This document shows, piece after piece, positions 5,046 through 40,163 of a stretch of DNA of 40,163 bases. Under the pieces are notes generated by a model. The model ran no database searches. It was not told the origin of the DNA and saw only the letters and a list, made by a program, of their open reading frames with translations. The number at the start of each line of letters is the position of its first letter. Position 1 is the first letter of the stretch. Source of the DNA: a virus; IMG/VR virus record IMGVR_UViG_3300008108_000374, positions 1-40,163 of that record, one strand, 5' to 3'. The position numbers and the translations under genes were made by a program.

Positions 5046-5689
5046 TAGACAACCTCAGTCGATTTGAGGCCAGCTTGTTCGGTATCAGTAATAACCCTAC
5101 CCTGTGCGCTAACGCCCAAGGCTTGAGTAAATGACTGCTGGAACAAGGCAGCACGTTGTGAGTTTACGTGTTCGTTATCAACTGACTCAGCCAAGAACAC
5201 TGTCGCGTCAACAACGACTGGGAAATAGCCATCTGACAACAACGTCACAGTTGTTGTGCCGTCATAGTCTGGAGGAGTCTGCGAATACTCCCCGATTAAA
5301 ATTTGACCTGCTGGCGCTTTGGGGTAGATGAAGAACTTGTTGGCATTGCGCACGTGGCGCATCCAGTTCACACATGGCCCAGCGGTATCGTTCATCCATG
5401 TTGGGTACGTCTGGTCAAGCGCCTCACGGTTTACCTCGGTAACACCGTTGCCACCTTGCACAGAGAATATCTCCATGACTCGGAGTGAATCAGACGGCAT
5501 AGATTGAATGACAGACCCAGCAGTGGTAGGGATCGCCCCAATGTAAGCAAAGAGGTCTGGGCGAAGCACAGCAATGCGCTTTAACGCCTGATTCGCAAAG
5601 CCCAACAACACCACATCGCTATAGCGCTGCGGTGAGTTGATGTCTTGCAGTAATCTGCGAACCTCAGTGATTACAGTGTTAAGTATCAT
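5045..5689 (-). CDS. Phage adaptor-like protein (DUF6682-like)
   Basis: 214 residues beginning MILNTVITEVRRLLQDINSPQRYSDVVLLGFANQALKRI. An N-terminal helical pair, then a beta region (FFIYPKAPAGQILIGEYSQTP) and a C-terminal helix pair (VVVDATVFLAESVDNEHVNSQRAALFQQSF), is the architecture of the DUF6682 phage adaptor family, which resembles the T7 gp11-type ring that joins portal to tail. The ATG overlaps the upstream gene stop (ATGA), and the stop overlaps the start of the next gene (TAATG), so three genes are translated as a coupled set. I am fairly confident of a head-tail adaptor role; the family name is from memory and would need an HMM search. Confidence 0.75.
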   Translation of the reverse strand: MILNTVITEVRRLLQDINSPQRYSDVVLLGFANQALKRIAVLRPDLFAYIGAIPTTAGSVIQSMPSDSLRVMEIFSVQGGNGVTEVNREALDQTYPTWMNDTAGPCVNWMRHVRNANKFFIYPKAPAGQILIGEYSQTPPDYDGTTTVTLLSDGYFPVVVDATVFLAESVDNEHVNSQRAALFQQSFTQALGVSAQGRVITDTEQAGLKSTEVV

Positions 5690-19782: not shown

Positions 19783-20631
19783 ATGAATCTAAATGATAGA
19801 GCGTTGCTAGTGCAACTATCCATATCACAGTGGACTGCTCGTAAGTTCGACAAGCGGGTAACACGTGACGTAGCCTCATCTCATGGGACAACCATAGATG
19901 TGGGTCGGTACAACAAGGTCTTGCTTCCAATGAACGATCTACTTGATCGTGTACACAAGAAGTCAACACACATCCGTACCAAGTTCTATGACAACACGTT
20001 GCCGTGGGGTTTAGATGGCACGATGATGCTACCCACATCCAACTACCTCAACTTTATGACTGAGTTCCGCAAGGAAAAGAACGAGTGGTATAGCCTTGTG
20101 TCTGACTTCCGTAATGAGTATCCCCAACTGGTACTAGATGCCAAGCGTTTACTTATCGGTCTGTACGATGCCAATGACTACCCAAGTCCTGATGACATAG
20201 GCAACAAGTTCAATCTTGACGTAGCGATATTCCCTGTACCAAGCAGTGACTTCCGTGTGTCGATAGCTTCAGAGGAACTGTCCCGCATCCAACAAGACGT
20301 TGAGCGTAGAGTTGCTGATGCACAGAGCAAGGCAATGATCGAGGTGTGGCAACGCATCTACGATAAGGTCAAGCACATGGCTGAGAAACTAGCTGACCCC
20401 AAGTCTATCTTCCGAGATAGCATGGTTGAGAACATCCGTGAACAGTGTGACTTACTGTCTCGCTTGAACTTCATGGATGACCCCAACCTAGAAACACTTC
20501 GACAAGAAGTTGAAACCACGTTGCTCAAGCATCCTGATGCTCTACGTAACGACCCCGATCTTCGCCGTGATACAGCGGCAGAAGCCAAAGCAATCATGGA
20601 CAAGATGTCCGTTTTCATGGGAGGTAAATGA
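19783..20631 (+). CDS. DUF3150-like partner of the AAA+/VWA cassette
   Basis: I place the start at ATG 19783 (MNLNDRALLVQLSISQWTAR, 282 residues), with AGGAG upstream; the frame is open further upstream, but without a ribosome site. The N-terminal pattern LSISQWTARKFDKRVTRDVA, followed by GRYNKVLLPMNDLLDRVHKK and NTLPWGLDG, resembles DUF3150 proteins, which commonly sit between a MoxR ATPase and a CobT/VWA protein. The rest is long and helical with coiled-coil character (RIQQDVERRVADAQSKAMIEVWQRI). It is probably an adaptor or substrate of the ATPase. The 139 bases before it hold no gene, only a weak long-loop hairpin (GGGATGC 19649, GCATCCC 19687). Family name from memory. Confidence 0.75.
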   Translation: MNLNDRALLVQLSISQWTARKFDKRVTRDVASSHGTTIDVGRYNKVLLPMNDLLDRVHKKSTHIRTKFYDNTLPWGLDGTMMLPTSNYLNFMTEFRKEKNEWYSLVSDFRNEYPQLVLDAKRLLIGLYDANDYPSPDDIGNKFNLDVAIFPVPSSDFRVSIASEELSRIQQDVERRVADAQSKAMIEVWQRIYDKVKHMAEKLADPKSIFRDSMVENIREQCDLLSRLNFMDDPNLETLRQEVETTLLKHPDALRNDPDLRRDTAAEAKAIMDKMSVFMGGK

Positions 20632-21797
20632 TGACTAGCGTAATGCCTAAAGAGGAGGTGAAACCAATCACCCCACAAGAAGAAGCCAAGATGAGGATAC
20701 GTCTTGCGAAAGCAAAGACTGCACTCATACTTGAGCATCCGTTCATTGGTACTGTGGCACTCAACATGCCGTTCGTATTGAGCCGTGACATACCGACTGC
20801 CTCAACGAATGGCAAGCGTGTGCAGTTTAACCCTGACTTCTGTAGCGAGTTGACAGATGAGGAGTTGAAGTTCCTTGTAGCACATGAGTGTTTACATCCG
20901 ATGCTTGAGCACAACTACCGCAGACAAGAGAGACAACACCGCCGTTGGAACAAAGCGGCTGACTACGTAATCAACAAGTTGCTAGTCGATGACAACATTG
21001 GCAAGATGCCTGAGCGTGGCTTACTCAGCGATGCTATCTACCAAGCAGGCAACGGAACATCCGATGGTATCTACAACATCCTTGAAGATGATGAGGGTGG
21101 TGGAGGTGGTGGGTACGGCGGAGATGGCGACCCTCTCGACAACTGTGAAGATGCTGAGGGTTCACAAGCCGAGCAAGCACAAGAGCAAGCCGAGTGGAAA
21201 GTCAAGGTAGCACAAGCGGCACAAGCCGCAAAGATGATGGGCAAGTTGAGTGCAGGCATGGAACGACTGGTTGACGAGGTACTCAGACCTAAGGTTGACT
21301 GGCGTGATGTGATGCAACGCTTCCTTGTCAAGTGTAAGAACGATAACCGCTCATGGGCTAGACCTAACCGCCGCTTTATAGCGCAGGGTATGTACCTACC
21401 AAGCACCAGTGGTGAGGTGATGGGTGAGGTGTTGTTTGCAGTGGACTGCTCAGGTTCAATCACTCAAGACATTATCAATCAGTTCTCTGCTGAGATTCGT
21501 ACAGTCAAGGAGGACATGTTCCCAACACGTATCCATGTGGTGTACTTTGATAGCGAGGTGAGCCACTACGAATCGTATGGTGTAGATGATGAGTTAGACA
21601 TCAAGCCACACGGCGGTGGAGGTACTGCGTTTAGCCCTGTGTTTGAGTACATCGAGGAACACGGCATCGAACCTATCGCAGTAGTGTTCCTGACTGACCT
21701 GTGTTGTGATGACTTCGGCAACGAACCCAACTGCCCTGTACTGTGGGTATCTACCGATGAGGGCACTGCACCTTTCGGAGAAGTGGTGCTGATGTGA
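20628..21797 (+). CDS. Metallopeptidase-like + VWA protein (DUF2201-like)
   Basis: 389 residues (ATG 20628; the ATG at 20631 has better spacing to GGAGG). The N-terminal domain has VAHECLH (85-90), an HExxH zinc motif, followed by WNKAADYVIN whose Asp is the likely third ligand; this is the DUF2201 N-terminal putative metallopeptidase. A Gly/Asp/Gln-rich linker spans about 153-190. The C-terminal VWA domain has the MIDAS motif DCSGS (273-277) in EVLFAVDCSGSIT, with a later GGGGTAF and VFLTDL. It is the classical partner of MoxR ATPases; together they probably form a phage chaperone-like complex acting on a protein target. It overlaps the upstream gene by four bases and the next by four. Confidence 0.88.
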   Translation: MMTSVMPKEEVKPITPQEEAKMRIRLAKAKTALILEHPFIGTVALNMPFVLSRDIPTASTNGKRVQFNPDFCSELTDEELKFLVAHECLHPMLEHNYRRQERQHRRWNKAADYVINKLLVDDNIGKMPERGLLSDAIYQAGNGTSDGIYNILEDDEGGGGGGYGGDGDPLDNCEDAEGSQAEQAQEQAEWKVKVAQAAQAAKMMGKLSAGMERLVDEVLRPKVDWRDVMQRFLVKCKNDNRSWARPNRRFIAQGMYLPSTSGEVMGEVLFAVDCSGSITQDIINQFSAEIRTVKEDMFPTRIHVVYFDSEVSHYESYGVDDELDIKPHGGGGTAFSPVFEYIEEHGIEPIAVVFLTDLCCDDFGNEPNCPVLWVSTDEGTAPFGEVVLM

Positions 21798-22651
21798 TTA
21801 CATACGGCGAGTTGTTTGCCGTGTGTTTGTTCGTAGGTATGGGTGTTTACATCTCGTACCTACGCTCTGAGATACGGAGTCATATTCGTGCAGGGGTTTT
21901 ACTCTCTGCTTTGGTACATGATGTTGCCGATGGCAACGTAGAAATAGAAAGGCATGAAGATGGTATTAGAGTCCGAGTTAAAAATGAGAATCGTTCGGAG
22001 TCTGCAAACCTTAGCAGACACTATCAGGGAACTGCTACAGTCAGATTTAGTAAAGACTTACAAGATGCAATCGTAAAGAACGCAGAGAATATGTTTAACA
22101 AGCAGATAAATGCGACAAGGGACAACATCAACACAACGTGGGGTGATCGTATCTACGAAATCATCCATCGTAAATACATCCCTGCTATGAACGCACTACC
22201 AGTGTGCTTCTTCACCGAAACTTCTAGCATGAAGGTAGCACGAATCAATGGTACAGATGTTGGTGGGTTGGAGTGCAAGATGACTAACTCACGCCCTGTA
22301 CCCCACACCCTACCCAAAGATGTACCTGCTAAAAACAAGGACTACTACGGCTACGAGTTAGTTGGTAACGAGTGGGAGGAGATAGCCCAAGAGATTGAGG
22401 ACTACCGCAACGATATCAAAGCAATAGCGCAGAAGAAAACAGACTTTGTTAGCGCCGTCAAGGAAGTTATCAAGGCACATGCAACGCTATCTCCTGCGTT
22501 GAAGATGTGGCCTCCACTGTGGGACTTGATACCTGAGGACTACAAGGATAGACACCGCCAAGTAGTAGAGCGTGAGAAGAAAGAGGTCGTAGTCAATGTT
22601 GACCTTGGTACTCTGACTGCTACTGTAGTAGCCCACAAACTCACACGCTGA
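21794..22651 (+). CDS. TM-anchored Nmad5-like protein
   Basis: 285 residues from a GTG that overlaps the upstream stop (GTGA). An N-terminal membrane segment (about 3-23, YGELFAVCLFVGMGVYISYL) is followed by a short spacer. From about residue 83 (VRFSKDLQDAIVKNAENMFNKQI) comes a domain that resembles Nmad5, a family linked to phage nucleotide modification loci, including IHRKYIPAMNALPVCFF and LSPALKMWPPLWDLIP. Nmad5 proteins normally start at the RFSKDL block, so the membrane part looks fused. No partner base-modification enzymes are visible in the window, so modification of DNA is uncertain. The family call is from memory of the pattern. Confidence 0.65.
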   Translation: MITYGELFAVCLFVGMGVYISYLRSEIRSHIRAGVLLSALVHDVADGNVEIERHEDGIRVRVKNENRSESANLSRHYQGTATVRFSKDLQDAIVKNAENMFNKQINATRDNINTTWGDRIYEIIHRKYIPAMNALPVCFFTETSSMKVARINGTDVGGLECKMTNSRPVPHTLPKDVPAKNKDYYGYELVGNEWEEIAQEIEDYRNDIKAIAQKKTDFVSAVKEVIKAHATLSPALKMWPPLWDLIPEDYKDRHRQVVEREKKEVVVNVDLGTLTATVVAHKLTR

Positions 22652-22695
22652 TATGCAGTCACGTATATCCATACCATGAGTATCAAGTAAAGCGT

Positions 22696-27488: not shown

Positions 27489-28916
27489 ATGGTAGTGGTG
27501 GAACAGGCAAGGACACTTGCTATGAAATTAAACAATCCGAACAGGGTTCTCGACAGTATTCCTACTGCCAAGCCCTACACGGTACGTGGTGTGCCACTTG
27601 TGGTAGCACCGCATAGACTGGATGAGGTCAGGGTTCTGCGTAACCTTGGCATCAAAGCACCATCGCCCATACTGCACTACTACAACTGGTGTGGTCAGTA
27701 CAAACCCTATGAGCACCAACGGCAGACGGCGGCGTTCCTTACGCTTAACCACTGTGGGTTGGTACTCAACGAGATCGGTGGGTTTGTGCACCGTAAATTT
27801 GTTGTGCTTCATGGAACATCTGAGAAGCGCCGCAAGCTACTGAACACTGAGGCTGACTTCTACATCATTAACCACGATGGATTCCCTATCATCTGTGAAG
27901 AAGCACATGGTAAGTTTGACTTGGTGATCGTTGACGAGGCGGCAGTGCTACGCAACCCATCAACACAACGCTTCAAGATATTCCGCAAATGGATGGCGAA
28001 CAATCTGCCAACACGTTTGTGGCTGATGACTGGCACACCGACACCCAATGACCCGACAGACGCATGGGCACTTGCCAAGTTGGTTGGGTCACCGTTCTGC
28101 ACCAAGACGTATACGGCGTTCAGAGAACAGGTGATGATGAAGATTGGTCAGTGGAAATTTGTGCCAAGACCTGAGAGCGTAGAGATTGTGAAGCACATCC
28201 TACAACCTGCGGTCAGGTACACACGTGATGAATGTTTTGAGTTGCCCGACACAATCATTCAGACTCGTCAAGTAGAACTCACTGCGGAACAGAAGAAGCA
28301 TTACTCACAGATGCTTAAACATTTTGTGACGGAGATGAGCGCAGAGGGAACGATCACTGCGGTCAATGAGGCAGTCAAGATTCAGAAGTTAGTTCAGATC
28401 GCTTGCGGCGTAGCCTATGGTGATGATGGACAGAACATTGGTATTGATTGCAGTCCACGTATTAACTTAGTAAAGGAGGTGATAGAAGAAGCAGGAGAAA
28501 AAGTAATTTTATTTGTACCACTCACTGGCACATTGCACATGCTTGAGAAAGAACTCAGCAAGCACTGGTCGGTTGCAGTTGTGAACGGCGAGGTATCCTC
28601 AAGTAAGCGTAACCAAATCTTTCACGACTTCCAACATGCCAAGACACCGCATGTATTGATTGCTCATCCCGCAACAATGGCGCATGGACTTACTCTAACG
28701 AGTGCGTCAACGATCATATGGTATGGCCCGATCAATAGCAACGAGCAATATGTTCAAGCGAATGGGCGCATTGAGCGCATAGGTAAGAGGCAAATATCCA
28801 ATGTCGTACACATAGAGGCAACAGACCTTGAACACAAAATGTACGAACGCTTGAAGAATAAACAAAAGCTTCAAGGATTGCTTCTTGATTTAATCCAACA
28901 ACAGACAAGAAGGTGA
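27489..28916 (+). CDS. SNF2-like DEAD helicase lacking motif I
   Basis: 475 residues. Helicase motif Q/entry YEHQRQTAAFLTL (about 74-86), motif II IVDEAAVLRN, motif III LMTGTPTPN, motif V/VI region (IIWYGPINSNEQYVQANGRIERIGKR) are present. At residues 94-101 the sequence reads NEIGGFVHRKF where family members have NE.G.GKT, motif Ia and about 45-55 residues in total before HRKFVVLHG. Thus Walker A is missing by an apparent in-frame deletion, and ATP binding should be lost. The start could be ATG 27489 or ATG 27522. It lies in the recombination/replication cluster. Intact homologues are SNF2-family phage helicases; this copy may be defective or an assembly error. Confidence 0.85.
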   Translation: MVVVEQARTLAMKLNNPNRVLDSIPTAKPYTVRGVPLVVAPHRLDEVRVLRNLGIKAPSPILHYYNWCGQYKPYEHQRQTAAFLTLNHCGLVLNEIGGFVHRKFVVLHGTSEKRRKLLNTEADFYIINHDGFPIICEEAHGKFDLVIVDEAAVLRNPSTQRFKIFRKWMANNLPTRLWLMTGTPTPNDPTDAWALAKLVGSPFCTKTYTAFREQVMMKIGQWKFVPRPESVEIVKHILQPAVRYTRDECFELPDTIIQTRQVELTAEQKKHYSQMLKHFVTEMSAEGTITAVNEAVKIQKLVQIACGVAYGDDGQNIGIDCSPRINLVKEVIEEAGEKVILFVPLTGTLHMLEKELSKHWSVAVVNGEVSSSKRNQIFHDFQHAKTPHVLIAHPATMAHGLTLTSASTIIWYGPINSNEQYVQANGRIERIGKRQISNVVHIEATDLEHKMYERLKNKQKLQGLLLDLIQQQTRR

Positions 28917-33695: not shown

Positions 33696-36600
33696 TTACA
33701 TGATCTCATCGTCTAGTCCGTAGAGTCTCAACAACTCTATGGTCTCAGGACGCATAGCCCTTGGCGCTGACTTCATGTAGCGCAACGCAGTTGGACGCTG
33801 AGCCTCACGATATGCACGATTGGCAGACTGCAAGAACTTAGTCACTTCCAAACCTGTACCCTTGGAATCCTCATTCCACTGGCTTACTGCGGATGCAATA
33901 TTATCTGCTGCCTCTTGGTCACCGGCAGCCCGAGCCTTCACATACGCAGCAACATATTCTGCTTTGACCGCCTTGCCGTATTCATTGACTTGCTTGGACA
34001 TACGAACAATATCGTTCTGCTGAGTGGCTATCGCTGGGTAGAAGCCGAGTAGTCGAGCAAGAATTACGTGCGCTTGTGCATCCTTGGCAACCATCTGACC
34101 ACGTACGTTCGTGATGTCACCACTTGACAGGTACGCAAAACTGTCTCCGACAGACCGCAGCGCAGCTATTGGGGACTCTCGCATCAATGTGTTGAGGGAT
34201 GTAGTGTCATCACGCAGGCCCGTTACCTCAGCACCATACTTAGCCAAACCACCTGCCATTGATACCAGCCCACTGATACCGCTGAACACTGGGCCAGCAA
34301 AGTCACCGATCTCACGTGCAGGGTCTGCGCCAGCTTTAAGAGCACCAGTCAACGGAACTAGATCGCCCATACCCAAGCGGGTAGATACAGTCGCACCGAC
34401 TGCACGGTCAATCAAACCACGCATGACATACGGCGACATTCCCGGGGCCACACTATCAACCCATTCAGCAGTAGCTTTCTCGATGCTTGCCACTTTGAGG
34501 CCGAGCATCTGCGCGATTGTGTCAACAATGTCAGCGAGGTCGTCAGCAAATGGTATGCCCTTCAGACCACTCATCATCAACAGTAAGCCAAGCATCAACA
34601 ACTGCCCACGAACTGGCATGTTACGCAGCAGTTGGACGGTGATGATTACGAACTGCTTGTACATGAATATGTATTGAGCTACGTTGCCACGTGCCATCTC
34701 TGGTCGGTTGAACATGGCGTACTCACCTTGCGATGTGTTGACCGCAATCCGTGCTGCCTCAGTAGCCTCAGCGATTGCTTGTTCTTCGCTCAACCCTTGT
34801 GACAGTGCACGTTCTTTCTCAAGGCGGTACGCTGCCAGTGCAGTGATTCGGCGGTTGGCCTGCTCTGTATAGGAGAACATAGCCATCCATGCCTTAATAC
34901 CTGCTTGTGCTTTATTGTTAAACACCTTGCCACGTGCTGTACCCACCAGTGCGTTGAACTGAGCCGCCTGCAATGTGCCCTGCTCAGTGGCATCAAACAA
35001 GAACTTAGTCTCATCCTCTGTCAGTCCATACTTGTCGTACCCACCATTGACCAGCAAGTCATTCAAGAACCCAGCGTCCTCCAGCTTGTAACTGCCTGCA
35101 TCAAGGGCCGCACGGTAGAGGGAGGTCACGGCTTTGGCCTCACCGTAACCGCCGCCATAACCACGCTTGGCGTTGTAGTAGGACAGGTATGGTGTACTGT
35201 GGGTAAGCAGAGATACAAAGTTCACGGCTGCGGATGCAACTGAACCACCCAACTGCATCAACACTGTGATTAGTTTTAGGAACGAGCCAGCTTCCCCCGA
35301 CAACATATCTTCGGTGCTGTCGTTAATATTGGATGAGTCGTTGTACCAGCGAATAAGTTTCTTGGCTTCTTCACGATAGCGCTCACCTTGTCCCAGTGTA
35401 GGTTCACCATTGACCGTAACGCCAGCAGCTTTAGGAGCCATGTACTTGTACATGAACGCATACTCATCGTACGCACGTTGCGCTCTAACACGCTGCCCGT
35501 CAGTAGTTGCTGTATCAATCGCAGCCTGCAAATCCTTGAGCTTCTGTGGGTCACCAAGCCATGACGAATTGTTGAGCATGATGTCATCAAGACGGTGGCG
35601 GTAGATTTTCTTGGCGGCAACGTGAGCCACCATCTCTAGATGCTCAGACACAGAACGCACGATGTCGCTGTCCCATCCGGGATTACCACTACGTTGTAAG
35701 TTCTTACGAGCACGGTCGTTTTGATTCGTCAGTGTCTTGACAATACGTTCACGTGCGGTTGGTGTGATGTTTACGTTCAAGCGGTTCAGCACATAGATGA
35801 ACTCATTGAAGTTCACGGCTTCAGTTAAAGATGGGCTGACTGCGGCTTCTGAAGATTCTGCACGCAGAGTTACTTTGATCCCTGCGCCGTACTCATCTTT
35901 AAGAATCCACTCTTGCCCATTGCCGAACTCATTCTCCAATGCCTCGCGTGCAGCGGTTGCTTCACTCTCAGTCTCAAACTGGAAGTAGGGCATGGCGTCA
36001 CGGATGTTCTCATCCAAACGCACTGGGTTACCTTGAGCATCGAACGCTGCCACCCTAGCTTGGTACTCACCACGGCGGCTGAACGGAACGTATGAGCCAA
36101 GGATGGTGCGCTTTGCGTAGAATTCCGCGTTGCGTGTCTGCAAATCAAACAAGAAGATGTCTTGCACAGCCTTCTGAATTGCAAAGGCTTGCTCTTTGTT
36201 ACGAATCTTGTCACGAATTGCGGGGATAGCGGCGCGAATATCGTCGTACTCAGCCTTCTGAAACTCTTCAAAATCTTTGAGCATCTCACCAGAGATACGT
36301 GGGTTCTTCATCCATGCGTCAAACACATCGTCATTGAATAGCGCACGACCAAAGTTGTAGATGAATTTCTCAGAGCGCTGGTCTGCACCCTTTTGTACTT
36401 CGACGGAAGCGTTTGCAATGCGGCTACCACCATAGCGGATGTTCTGATACATCTCAATTACTTTGCGGATAGCAGCAAGGTCTTGTGCAGAGAACTCAGC
36501 CTTGAGTCCTTTCATACCAGCGAGTTCATTGAACACCCGTTGCTGTTCTGCTTGAGATGCTTCATAGTTTGATAGCAGCAAATCTACTGCTGCGTCGTTT

Positions 36601-39600
36601 ACTGTCTCACGCATCTCAGTGTAGACACGCCACACTGGGCTGTTCTCATCAACATTGAACTGGTACTTGATTCTTTCACCAGTGCCGAGTTCTACATCAA
36701 AGCCCTTGCGGAATTCTTCCGCAGTCACAGTGCCTGCCTTCTCTAACAACTGGCGCACACGTGGGTCAACAGTGACATTACCCATTGCGTCTTTAGTAAT
36801 CATGGAGCCGTATGACTCCATCAACTCATCAGTCAACTGGCGTGACTTGAACAGCGCAGCGTATGCAGCAAGTTCCCCAGCTTGTTGTTTCTCCTCCTCA
36901 GACACGCCGCCACCGAATCCAAACACACGTGGTGTGTGGGTGAACGCCATGTAGCGTGAGTACTTGGAGAGTAAGGCGCGAGCCTTCTGACTTCGTTGTT
37001 CAAAGATACGGAATATCTGATTGAGGCCATAGCTCTTGCGAGCCATGTTGTCGAGGGTCTGTACCTTCTCAAGTATCTTGCCTACGTTTACACCAACATC
37101 TCCTGTCTTGCCGAACAGCCCTTTCTGGAAGGCGTCCATCGACCCAAACATACCAGCACCGGGGCCGTGCCTACGATTCAAGGCGTTCATTGCCATGCCT
37201 CGTGAGCCGATGTTGCCAGCAAAATTACGTGCGTATTTACCGTCTGCTACTGTTTGTTCCATCCACAACCTTGCGATGATTGATACATCTAGGTCAGCAG
37301 CGTTGTCAGCCAGATATTCCTCTATGGCTTCCAGCCTATCCATTCCTTGGGTCTCGACCATTGCGTCAACTGCGGCCTGCACATCAGGGTCAGTTTGATA
37401 TATACGATTCAGTACCTTGTTCAACTCAGACTGACCCATCACACCTTTGAAACCAAAGTGACCAATGGTTTCGTGAGCCAGTACAAATTTCAACTGTTGT
37501 TCAGTACGAACAAAGTCGGAGAAGATGATGACTTCAGGGCCGAAGGAGTAACCCACGGCATTGGTTGTGTCGAAGTCACCTTGCTTACGAGCAGCAGCGG
37601 CACGCTGATACAACTCAGGATTGCGAGCCTGCAAGTCAGCAACATTGGCGTACACATGGACAGTAGGTTTGACCTTGAGCTTTGCCAAGAAACCTTTGAC
37701 CAACAACTTCACACGACCAAGTGGGATAGCAGAACCCATTGGCGTGCCATCATCACGGTAGAAGTTACCTTCGGGTTTATCCCAATCCTGCACAGTTTCG
37801 CTACCACGTGCACCACGCTTACGGGCGTTGATAATATCTTGCTCTGCCTTTGACTCTGCTGCGGCTGCTTCACCTAATGCACGCAACTCAGCACGGCGTT
37901 CTTCTTCACGGGCACGTTGCTGTTCTTCAGTAAGTTCAACTTGGCTTAGGATGTAGCGACCATCAGACTTGATGAGCTTTGCCTCACCCTTGTCGTTGAA
38001 GTAGTCTTTGACTTTGCTTCCATCAGGCAGCATGTAGTTGCGGCCAGCTTCATCGAGTTCACTGTACAACTGCTTGGTCAGTGCTTTGATGTTGGCAAAA
38101 CGCTCAGAACCAAACACCACTTCCTTGGTCAGCGTAGGGATTTCCCTAACGCGGGTTACTAAATCGCGGATGAAGTTTGCCAGTTTTGCACCAGACTGGT
38201 CAACAATGCGGTTGAGTGAGGTGACCTTCTTGGTATTGACAACTGACTCACCAGCAGGCAGCGAGGTCTTGTACTTCTTGTAAACAGATACAGGTACGTT
38301 TTGCTCACTGATCTGGCGAGCTTGCAACAACTCAGCCACTTGCGTGTCGGACAACCCAATGAGCTTTGATCCAATGCTTGGGAGCAAGTTGCGCATCTGC
38401 GCATAGGTAAACCAAGGCTTTAGTGTGCCCTTTAGATTACCACGGGTGTAAGCAGCCCCGACTTCCAGTCGGTCATTGACGACATCCAGCAATGCGGTGT
38501 CCATGATGCCACGCTGATCTTCGGTAAAGCCAGTCTCAAGCAAGAACATCTGCGCCTTATCAATGACACCAGCTTTCTCATTGTTGGAGTCAGTATCAAA
38601 GTAGGCATGGAACATGATGTTCTCAATCGCATCACGGAACGCACTTGCATCTGTGGTGGACTCAGCCGTAGCAATATCCTCATCCAACAATTCCATGTAA
38701 GACAAGTCTGCCAGTTCTTCTTCAGCAGGTAGCGGTATAGCCTGAGCATTAATCTCATCAGCCAACGACATGGTGGCACGGTCGTAGTAATTCTCAGTTG
38801 CCCAGCGTCTCTTCTGCGCATCTGAAAGCGTGCTGTACGCTACGCCGCCCTCTGGTTTCCTGTCCTCCCATGCCTCGGCAGGACTCAGCTTCTCAACCTT
38901 TGGTTTGGCGGCGGGTTTTGCCGCCTCGACTTTTTTTGGTTCAGACCCTTTCTTAAGGGCTGTTGTTGCGGGTGTTACTTTTTGGGTTTGCTGCGACCCG
39001 CGCTGGAGAGACTTGCCGCCACCGCCTGCTTGAGTGCCGCCGCCTTGGACTTGGGTCGTGGGCTGGTTCCCAGCTTGCCCCCCGCCTTGTACTCCCGCAT
39101 TATCTTGCTTACGTTGGCTGACACTACCTTGTTGCTGCTTCCCTTTTTGAGTGGCATCGGGTGCTCCCTTTTTCAGATTGGACGCGGCCTTTGCCACGGT
39201 GACGGCAGTTACGGGTTTACCCGTAGGTTTTGCCTGAGTAACGCCTTTTGCCACCGTTGGCTTGGGCAGTGGTTGTTTCTTGCCTGCACTCTTAAGTGCC
39301 TGCATAGATGGCTGACCCTGTTGATTAAACAGGATGCCTTGTCCAGCACGCTGGAATTCACCAGCGGTGGGAGGGATAGTCAACGCCTGTGCCGCAGGTG
39401 TCTGCGTACCTACGCCACGACGCAATCCCTCAGCCCGTGAAGGACGGGGTAACTCACCACGTTTGAACAGTGGGAGTTGTTGTGGTTGAGAAACAGGGAT
39501 CGGACGCATCGGCATTGACTGCGGAGCAGGCTGCTGAGATTGCGTCATCAAATCCAGTTGTTGTTGGATTCGAGCCTCGTTCTGTAATCTATCAAGTTGT

Positions 39601-40163
39601 TGCTGTTTGATTGCCTCCTCTTGGGCGGCCCGCTGTGCTTGCGCAGCTTGGAATTCTTGTGCACGTTGTTGTGACGCAAGAGCCGCCTGCATCCGCTGCG
39701 CCAAGATTGGGTTAGCAGGAGCTTGAGGGGCTGGGCCACTGAACTGCAATGCACCCTGACGAGGATCAACCACGGGGGCAGCAGACGGCGCAGGCAGGCC
39801 GGGGAGTGGTTGCTGTGGCTGCATACGTGCAGCCAACTCCTGAGCAGGAATAGTTCCACCGAAAATATCCAGCACGCCTTGTGAGCCGGGTGTTGCACCG
39901 GGCGGGACGTTACCCTGCTGACGCAACAGAACATCTTGCCGCGTGACATCCGCAGCGTTTGGCCCCATGCCAGCCATAATGACTGGCCCACCCATTGGGG
40001 ATACAGGAGGAGTAGGGCCGGGAAGTTGTGGCGTAGTTGGGCTTGGGCCACCAAGTGCAGGAGGTTCAGGAGGAATAGCCCCCATGAACTGCACATCAGT
40101 GAACGGACGACCGGGGGGTGCAGGAGGTGGGTTGTATGGAACAATACCGCCACCTGTTTCTTT
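33696..40163 (-). CDS. Giant polyvalent virion protein (N-terminus beyond window)
   Basis: The frame is open to the right edge, so at least 2155 residues are encoded and the true start lies outside; the GTG at 40094 is not a convincing start. The first 430 or so residues are Pro/Gln/Gly/Ala-rich and disordered. A domain around 37,458-37,475 has AHETIGHFGFKG, an HExxGH zinc motif as in M49-type peptidases, with EAIEEYLADNA downstream as a possible third ligand. A long helical region follows. The C-terminal 350 residues contain membrane-like segments (QFVIITVQLLRNM, QLLMLGLLLMMSGL) and IPFADDL, resembling LPD38-type polyvalent-protein domains. Such giants are packaged in phage heads and injected. 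No lysozyme motif was seen. Confidence 0.85.
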   Translation of the reverse strand, partial: KETGGGIVPYNPPPAPPGRPFTDVQFMGAIPPEPPALGGPSPTTPQLPGPTPPVSPMGGPVIMAGMGPNAADVTRQDVLLRQQGNVPPGATPGSQGVLDIFGGTIPAQELAARMQPQQPLPGLPAPSAAPVVDPRQGALQFSGPAPQAPANPILAQRMQAALASQQRAQEFQAAQAQRAAQEEAIKQQQLDRLQNEARIQQQLDLMTQSQQPAPQSMPMRPIPVSQPQQLPLFKRGELPRPSRAEGLRRGVGTQTPAAQALTIPPTAGEFQRAGQGILFNQQGQPSMQALKSAGKKQPLPKPTVAKGVTQAKPTGKPVTAVTVAKAASNLKKGAPDATQKGKQQQGSVSQRKQDNAGVQGGGQAGNQPTTQVQGGGTQAGGGGKSLQRGSQQTQKVTPATTALKKGSEPKKVEAAKPAAKPKVEKLSPAEAWEDRKPEGGVAYSTLSDAQKRRWATENYYDRATMSLADEINAQAIPLPAEEELADLSYMELLDEDIATAESTTDASAFRDAIENIMFHAYFDTDSNNEKAGVIDKAQMFLLETGFTEDQRGIMDTALLDVVNDRLEVGAAYTRGNLKGTLKPWFTYAQMRNLLPSIGSKLIGLSDTQVAELLQARQISEQNVPVSVYKKYKTSLPAGESVVNTKKVTSLNRIVDQSGAKLANFIRDLVTRVREIPTLTKEVVFGSERFANIKALTKQLYSELDEAGRNYMLPDGSKVKDYFNDKGEAKLIKSDGRYILSQVELTEEQQRAREEERRAELRALGEAAAAESKAEQDIINARKRGARGSETVQDWDKPEGNFYRDDGTPMGSAIPLGRVKLLVKGFLAKLKVKPTVHVYANVADLQARNPELYQRAAAARKQGDFDTTNAVGYSFGPEVIIFSDFVRTEQQLKFVLAHETIGHFGFKGVMGQSELNKVLNRIYQTDPDVQAAVDAMVETQGMDRLEAIEEYLADNAADLDVSIIARLWMEQTVADGKYARNFAGNIGSRGMAMNALNRRHGPGAGMFGSMDAFQKGLFGKTGDVGVNVGKILEKVQTLDNMARKSYGLNQIFRIFEQRSQKARALLSKYSRYMAFTHTPRVFGFGGGVSEEEKQQAGELAAYAALFKSRQLTDELMESYGSMITKDAMGNVTVDPRVRQLLEKAGTVTAEEFRKGFDVELGTGERIKYQFNVDENSPVWRVYTEMRETVNDAAVDLLLSNYEASQAEQQRVFNELAGMKGLKAEFSAQDLAAIRKVIEMYQNIRYGGSRIANASVEVQKGADQRSEKFIYNFGRALFNDDVFDAWMKNPRISGEMLKDFEEFQKAEYDDIRAAIPAIRDKIRNKEQAFAIQKAVQDIFLFDLQTRNAEFYAKRTILGSYVPFSRRGEYQARVAAFDAQGNPVRLDENIRDAMPYFQFETESEATAAREALENEFGNGQEWILKDEYGAGIKVTLRAESSEAAVSPSLTEAVNFNEFIYVLNRLNVNITPTARERIVKTLTNQNDRARKNLQRSGNPGWDSDIVRSVSEHLEMVAHVAAKKIYRHRLDDIMLNNSSWLGDPQKLKDLQAAIDTATTDGQRVRAQRAYDEYAFMYKYMAPKAAGVTVNGEPTLGQGERYREEAKKLIRWYNDSSNINDSTEDMLSGEAGSFLKLITVLMQLGGSVASAAVNFVSLLTHSTPYLSYYNAKRGYGGGYGEAKAVTSLYRAALDAGSYKLEDAGFLNDLLVNGGYDKYGLTEDETKFLFDATEQGTLQAAQFNALVGTARGKVFNNKAQAGIKAWMAMFSYTEQANRRITALAAYRLEKERALSQGLSEEQAIAEATEAARIAVNTSQGEYAMFNRPEMARGNVAQYIFMYKQFVIITVQLLRNMPVRGQLLMLGLLLMMSGLKGIPFADDLADIVDTIAQMLGLKVASIEKATAEWVDSVAPGMSPYVMRGLIDRAVGATVSTRLGMGDLVPLTGALKAGADPAREIGDFAGPVFSGISGLVSMAGGLAKYGAEVTGLRDDTTSLNTLMRESPIAALRSVGDSFAYLSSGDITNVRGQMVAKDAQAHVILARLLGFYPAIATQQNDIVRMSKQVNEYGKAVKAEYVAAYVKARAAGDQEAADNIASAVSQWNEDSKGTGLEVTKFLQSANRAYREAQRPTALRYMKSAPRAMRPETIELLRLYGLDDEIM

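Follow-up and report, generated by a model that had tools for sequence, protein, structure and literature searches.

The window, the whole 40,163-base IMG/VR virus record analysed here, contains a gene for a SNF2-type phage DNA helicase that lacks motif I, and the question raised by this locus is whether the phage truly carries such a helicase or whether the gap belongs to the record alone. The absence of motif I through a clean in-frame deletion, which was pointed out in the initial annotation, was confirmed, and the range in which it had been placed (27765-27800) contains the junction. The ORF and the junction are as follows.

27489..28916, + strand: SNF2-type phage DNA helicase ORF, 475 aa as written, without 42 residues of motifs I and Ia
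27779..27780, + strand: helicase junction, 126 bp of all relatives missing, 0 bp microhomology, in frame

The ORF matches PHROG 62 (DNA helicase; E 1.8e-83) and contains the Pfam domains SNF2-rel_dom (residues 108-287, E 2.8e-14) and Helicase_C (residues 326-432, E 2.5e-15). The later helicase motifs are present, as had been claimed: motif II of the SNF2-family (SF2) helicases was found as DEAA at residues 149-152 together with the SNF2-related domain, and the C-terminal Helicase_C domain includes motifs V and VI, with QANGRIERIG conserved. The Walker A sequence (motif I, GxGKT) is absent from the ORF, which runs from ...LTLNHCGLVLNEIG directly into GFVHRKFVVLHGT... at the junction (NEIG followed by GFVHRKF in the translation). 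Judging from its sequence, the 475-aa ORF without motif I would not be expected to have DNA-dependent ATPase activity. In the window, the gene belongs to a replication/recombination cluster that also encodes DNA polymerase A and two nucleases, one of the PD-(D/E)XK type and one Hjc-like.

In comparison with the nearest records, the missing segment consists of 126 bp (42 codons), and both of its ends lie at codon boundaries. The gap had been estimated from homologues at about 150 bp or 50 aa including motif Ia; the inclusion of motif Ia held, whereas the size proved to be smaller. The lost 42 residues, which comprise motif I (GTGKT), motif Ia and the surrounding helices and strand, are nearly invariant among relatives. 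The full segment, with GTGKT or GTGKS, is present in all 80 related loci retrieved from IMG/VR, so that the homologues sharing the same gap for which the initial annotation had allowed were not found among these relatives, and the intact motif I sequence was detected in 10 contigs of the viral collection. The remainder of the helicase gene is 99.93% identical to that of IMGVR_UViG_3300008113_000219 (G002) and 99.7% identical to that of IMGVR_UViG_3300032093_000184 (G001), two uncultivated phage contigs that share the gene order of the window and that both carry the 126-bp segment. Intact copies of the segment thus exist in near-identical records. The intact and the shortened protein were both modelled with AlphaFold, at low confidence (mean pLDDT 53 and 51, respectively), and the models were used only for the order of secondary structures; in the intact model, the lost part corresponds to a helix (100-113), a strand (120-124) and a second helix (126-138). 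Because the P-loop, helix 1, strand 2 and helix 2 would all be lost, the folding of the first RecA domain appears doubtful from these models.

Phage SNF2-family DNA helicases of PHROG 62, such as those of Pseudomonas phage Rollin and Rhizobium phage RHph_TM3_14A, are 35-39% identical in protein sequence across 91-94% of the query, and the window record differs from them in lacking the 42 residues of motifs I and Ia. The closest solved structure is PDB 1z63, the Sulfolobus SNF2/Rad54 helicase, which represents the SNF2 two-domain core. An intact relative aligns with this structure over residues 61-502 (E 1.2e-22), whereas the alignment of the window protein starts at residue 101, after the junction (E 3e-17), because motif I is gone. 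Similarly, the SNF2 domain match is stronger in the intact relative than in the window ORF (E 2.5e-21 versus 2.8e-14). The intact gene is an ordinary phage SNF2 helicase and belongs to an already known family of such helicases.

The whole window was compared with the near-identical G001 and G002. Three additional deletions were identified.

22033..22034, + strand: second junction, 98 bp missing, 1 bp microhomology
22669..22670, + strand: third junction, 104 bp missing, 0 bp microhomology, frameshift
37261..37262, - strand: fourth junction, 150 bp missing, 1 bp microhomology, in frame

The records used as references for these deletions are 99.2-99.97% identical to the window. G001 carries all of the 98-, 104-, 126- and 150-bp segments, and G002 carries the first three and ends before the 150-bp site; all four segments are also present in a third record (G003) that is ~94% identical overall. 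Two of the three companion deletions, those of 98 and 104 bp, wreck genes. With the 98-bp segment, a 57-aa ORF loses its end and the gene that follows (206 aa, Nmad5-like by a weak match) loses both its Shine-Dalgarno sequence and its ATG, and the two ORFs happen to join in frame, resulting in an artificial fused ORF of 285 aa. The 104-bp loss shifts the frame of a 75-aa ORF and leaves an 8-codon stub (MQSRISIP-stop). At the 150-bp site, a very large protein encoded on the minus strand is shortened by 50 residues without a change of frame. The window ORF at 33696-40094 (-) is 2132 aa long, has no match in Pfam and contains HETIGH, a metallopeptidase-like motif; in G001, it spans ~2,660 codons from stop to stop.

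Apart from the four deletions, the window is almost collinear with G001 and G002; the only other differences are a pair of single-base indels close to position 100 and a small number of clustered substitutions, and no mismatches are located near the helicase junction. At 5297-5354, ten substitutions fall within 58 bp of an otherwise 99.9% identical stretch; G001 and G002 have the same bases there, and the window differs from both. This could be a small recombination patch, as judged from the pattern of substitutions. Prompted by a cluster of base differences, a search for reverse transcriptase motifs yielded only a chance FADDL match inside the large protein. A further cluster of differences from both records lies near the left end (112-187), and another (373-720) distinguishes the window from G001 and is shared with G002. 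Positions 1-97 of the window do not align with either record. A putative phage metallopeptidase and VWA-like protein (DUF2201 pair) is encoded at 20628-21797 (+).

No motif common to the four junctions was recognized by eye, on which ground site-specific excision was rejected, and the leading 20-mers of the lost pieces were not found elsewhere in the window on either strand, which speaks against their having moved within the record. None of the four junction sequences was detected in any other IMG/VR viral contig searched; since the window record itself and its closest neighbours may be absent from this search, it tests independent records only. A lineage sharing the deletion was rejected on this basis. 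Two marks of an artefact were observed: the junctions are missing from independent near-identical assemblies, and several similar but unrelated lesions (four blunt deletions of 98-150 bp) are found in a single record. In high-identity pairs drawn from the 80 loci, deletions of 30-400 bp apart from those of the window were located at two independent sites, which show 5-7 bp of microhomology and one of which is common to two records, and no blunt deletions were detected in other records at these loci. On the sequences compared, blunt, unshared and multiple deletions are peculiar to the window record. A search of the literature returned nothing specific.

From these findings, we conclude that the helicase gap represents a technical loss specific to this record rather than a regulatory helicase, with a probability of roughly 85%. 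During contig assembly, scaffolding or processing, four stretches of approximately short-read length (98-150 bp) would have been dropped and their flanks abutted without Ns, either by the joining of contig ends minus the gap or by a similar fault in the making of the record. One of the dropped stretches happened to be 126 bp long, which would have left the helicase in frame. This interpretation is favoured because four read-length losses that are blunt, private and partly gene-destroying occur in a record that otherwise hardly differs from others in which the segments are intact. The deletions themselves, blunt and private to the record with intact near-identical copies elsewhere, can be read from the alignments, and their technical origin is what we infer from them. 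Against it, two of the four deletions preserve the frame within one gene, and the ORFs at 22033/22034 are also joined in frame; two in-frame deletions of four are, however, as chance allows, and the preserved helicase frame is therefore no evidence of selection. Since none of the 88 loci checked contains an N run and no other record in the set has blunt deletions, removal of Ns across the collection is not demonstrated, and gap loss as a collection-wide process is likewise unsupported, with no second record carrying a blunt deletion among the 80 loci.

Alternatively, the record may represent a real deletion variant or defective genome, in which the segment with helicase motif I and the three others are gone from a lineage or minority population that is maintained by complementation or is dying. 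The helicase junction is indeed clean and free of nearby mismatches, and the rest of the record is a normal phage genome. Nevertheless, such a variant would need to have acquired four separate deletions of ~100-150 bp, all of them blunt, since its split from 99.9%-identical records, and to have left none of the four junctions in any other contig searched, whereas the other deletions in the family show microhomology. We consider this variant unlikely. It is quite improbable that a packaged genome truly contains the motif-I-less helicase and the three short deletions, be it a defective genome rescued by co-infection or one encoding an ATPase-dead regulatory helicase. That the shortened protein itself is functional, being retained as a DNA-binding or regulatory protein, is very unlikely. 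In its favour, the reading frame is uninterrupted and neither motif II nor the C-terminal RecA-like domain is damaged; however, several elements of the first RecA fold are lost according to the low-confidence model, no such form exists among the 80 relatives, and the companion deletions are destructive. The regulatory or dominant form proposed in the initial annotation thus gained no support, the junction being found in no independent record and the deleted part being highly conserved. Nor does the argument hold that a clean, in-frame gap must have been kept: of the four blunt deletions of 98-150 bp in this record, two break genes. Assembly collapse over a direct repeat would produce a clean deletion, but this reading, along with slippage, is ruled out to near certainty by the relatives' sequence, in which the missing segment is not bordered by direct repeats and no microhomology exists at the helicase junction; of the assembly collapse suggested earlier, an assembly fault therefore remains favoured and its repeat-mediated form does not.

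The original observation was right and well placed, but the feature most likely does not exist in the phage behind this contig, whose genome would most likely code for an ordinary, complete SNF2 helicase. A clean in-frame loss of a domain in a metagenomic virus contig can mimic biology. In the present case, comparison of the whole record with near-identical contigs exposed sister lesions, in only some of which the frame was kept. These results call for practical caution in the calling of catalytically dead variants from single contigs.
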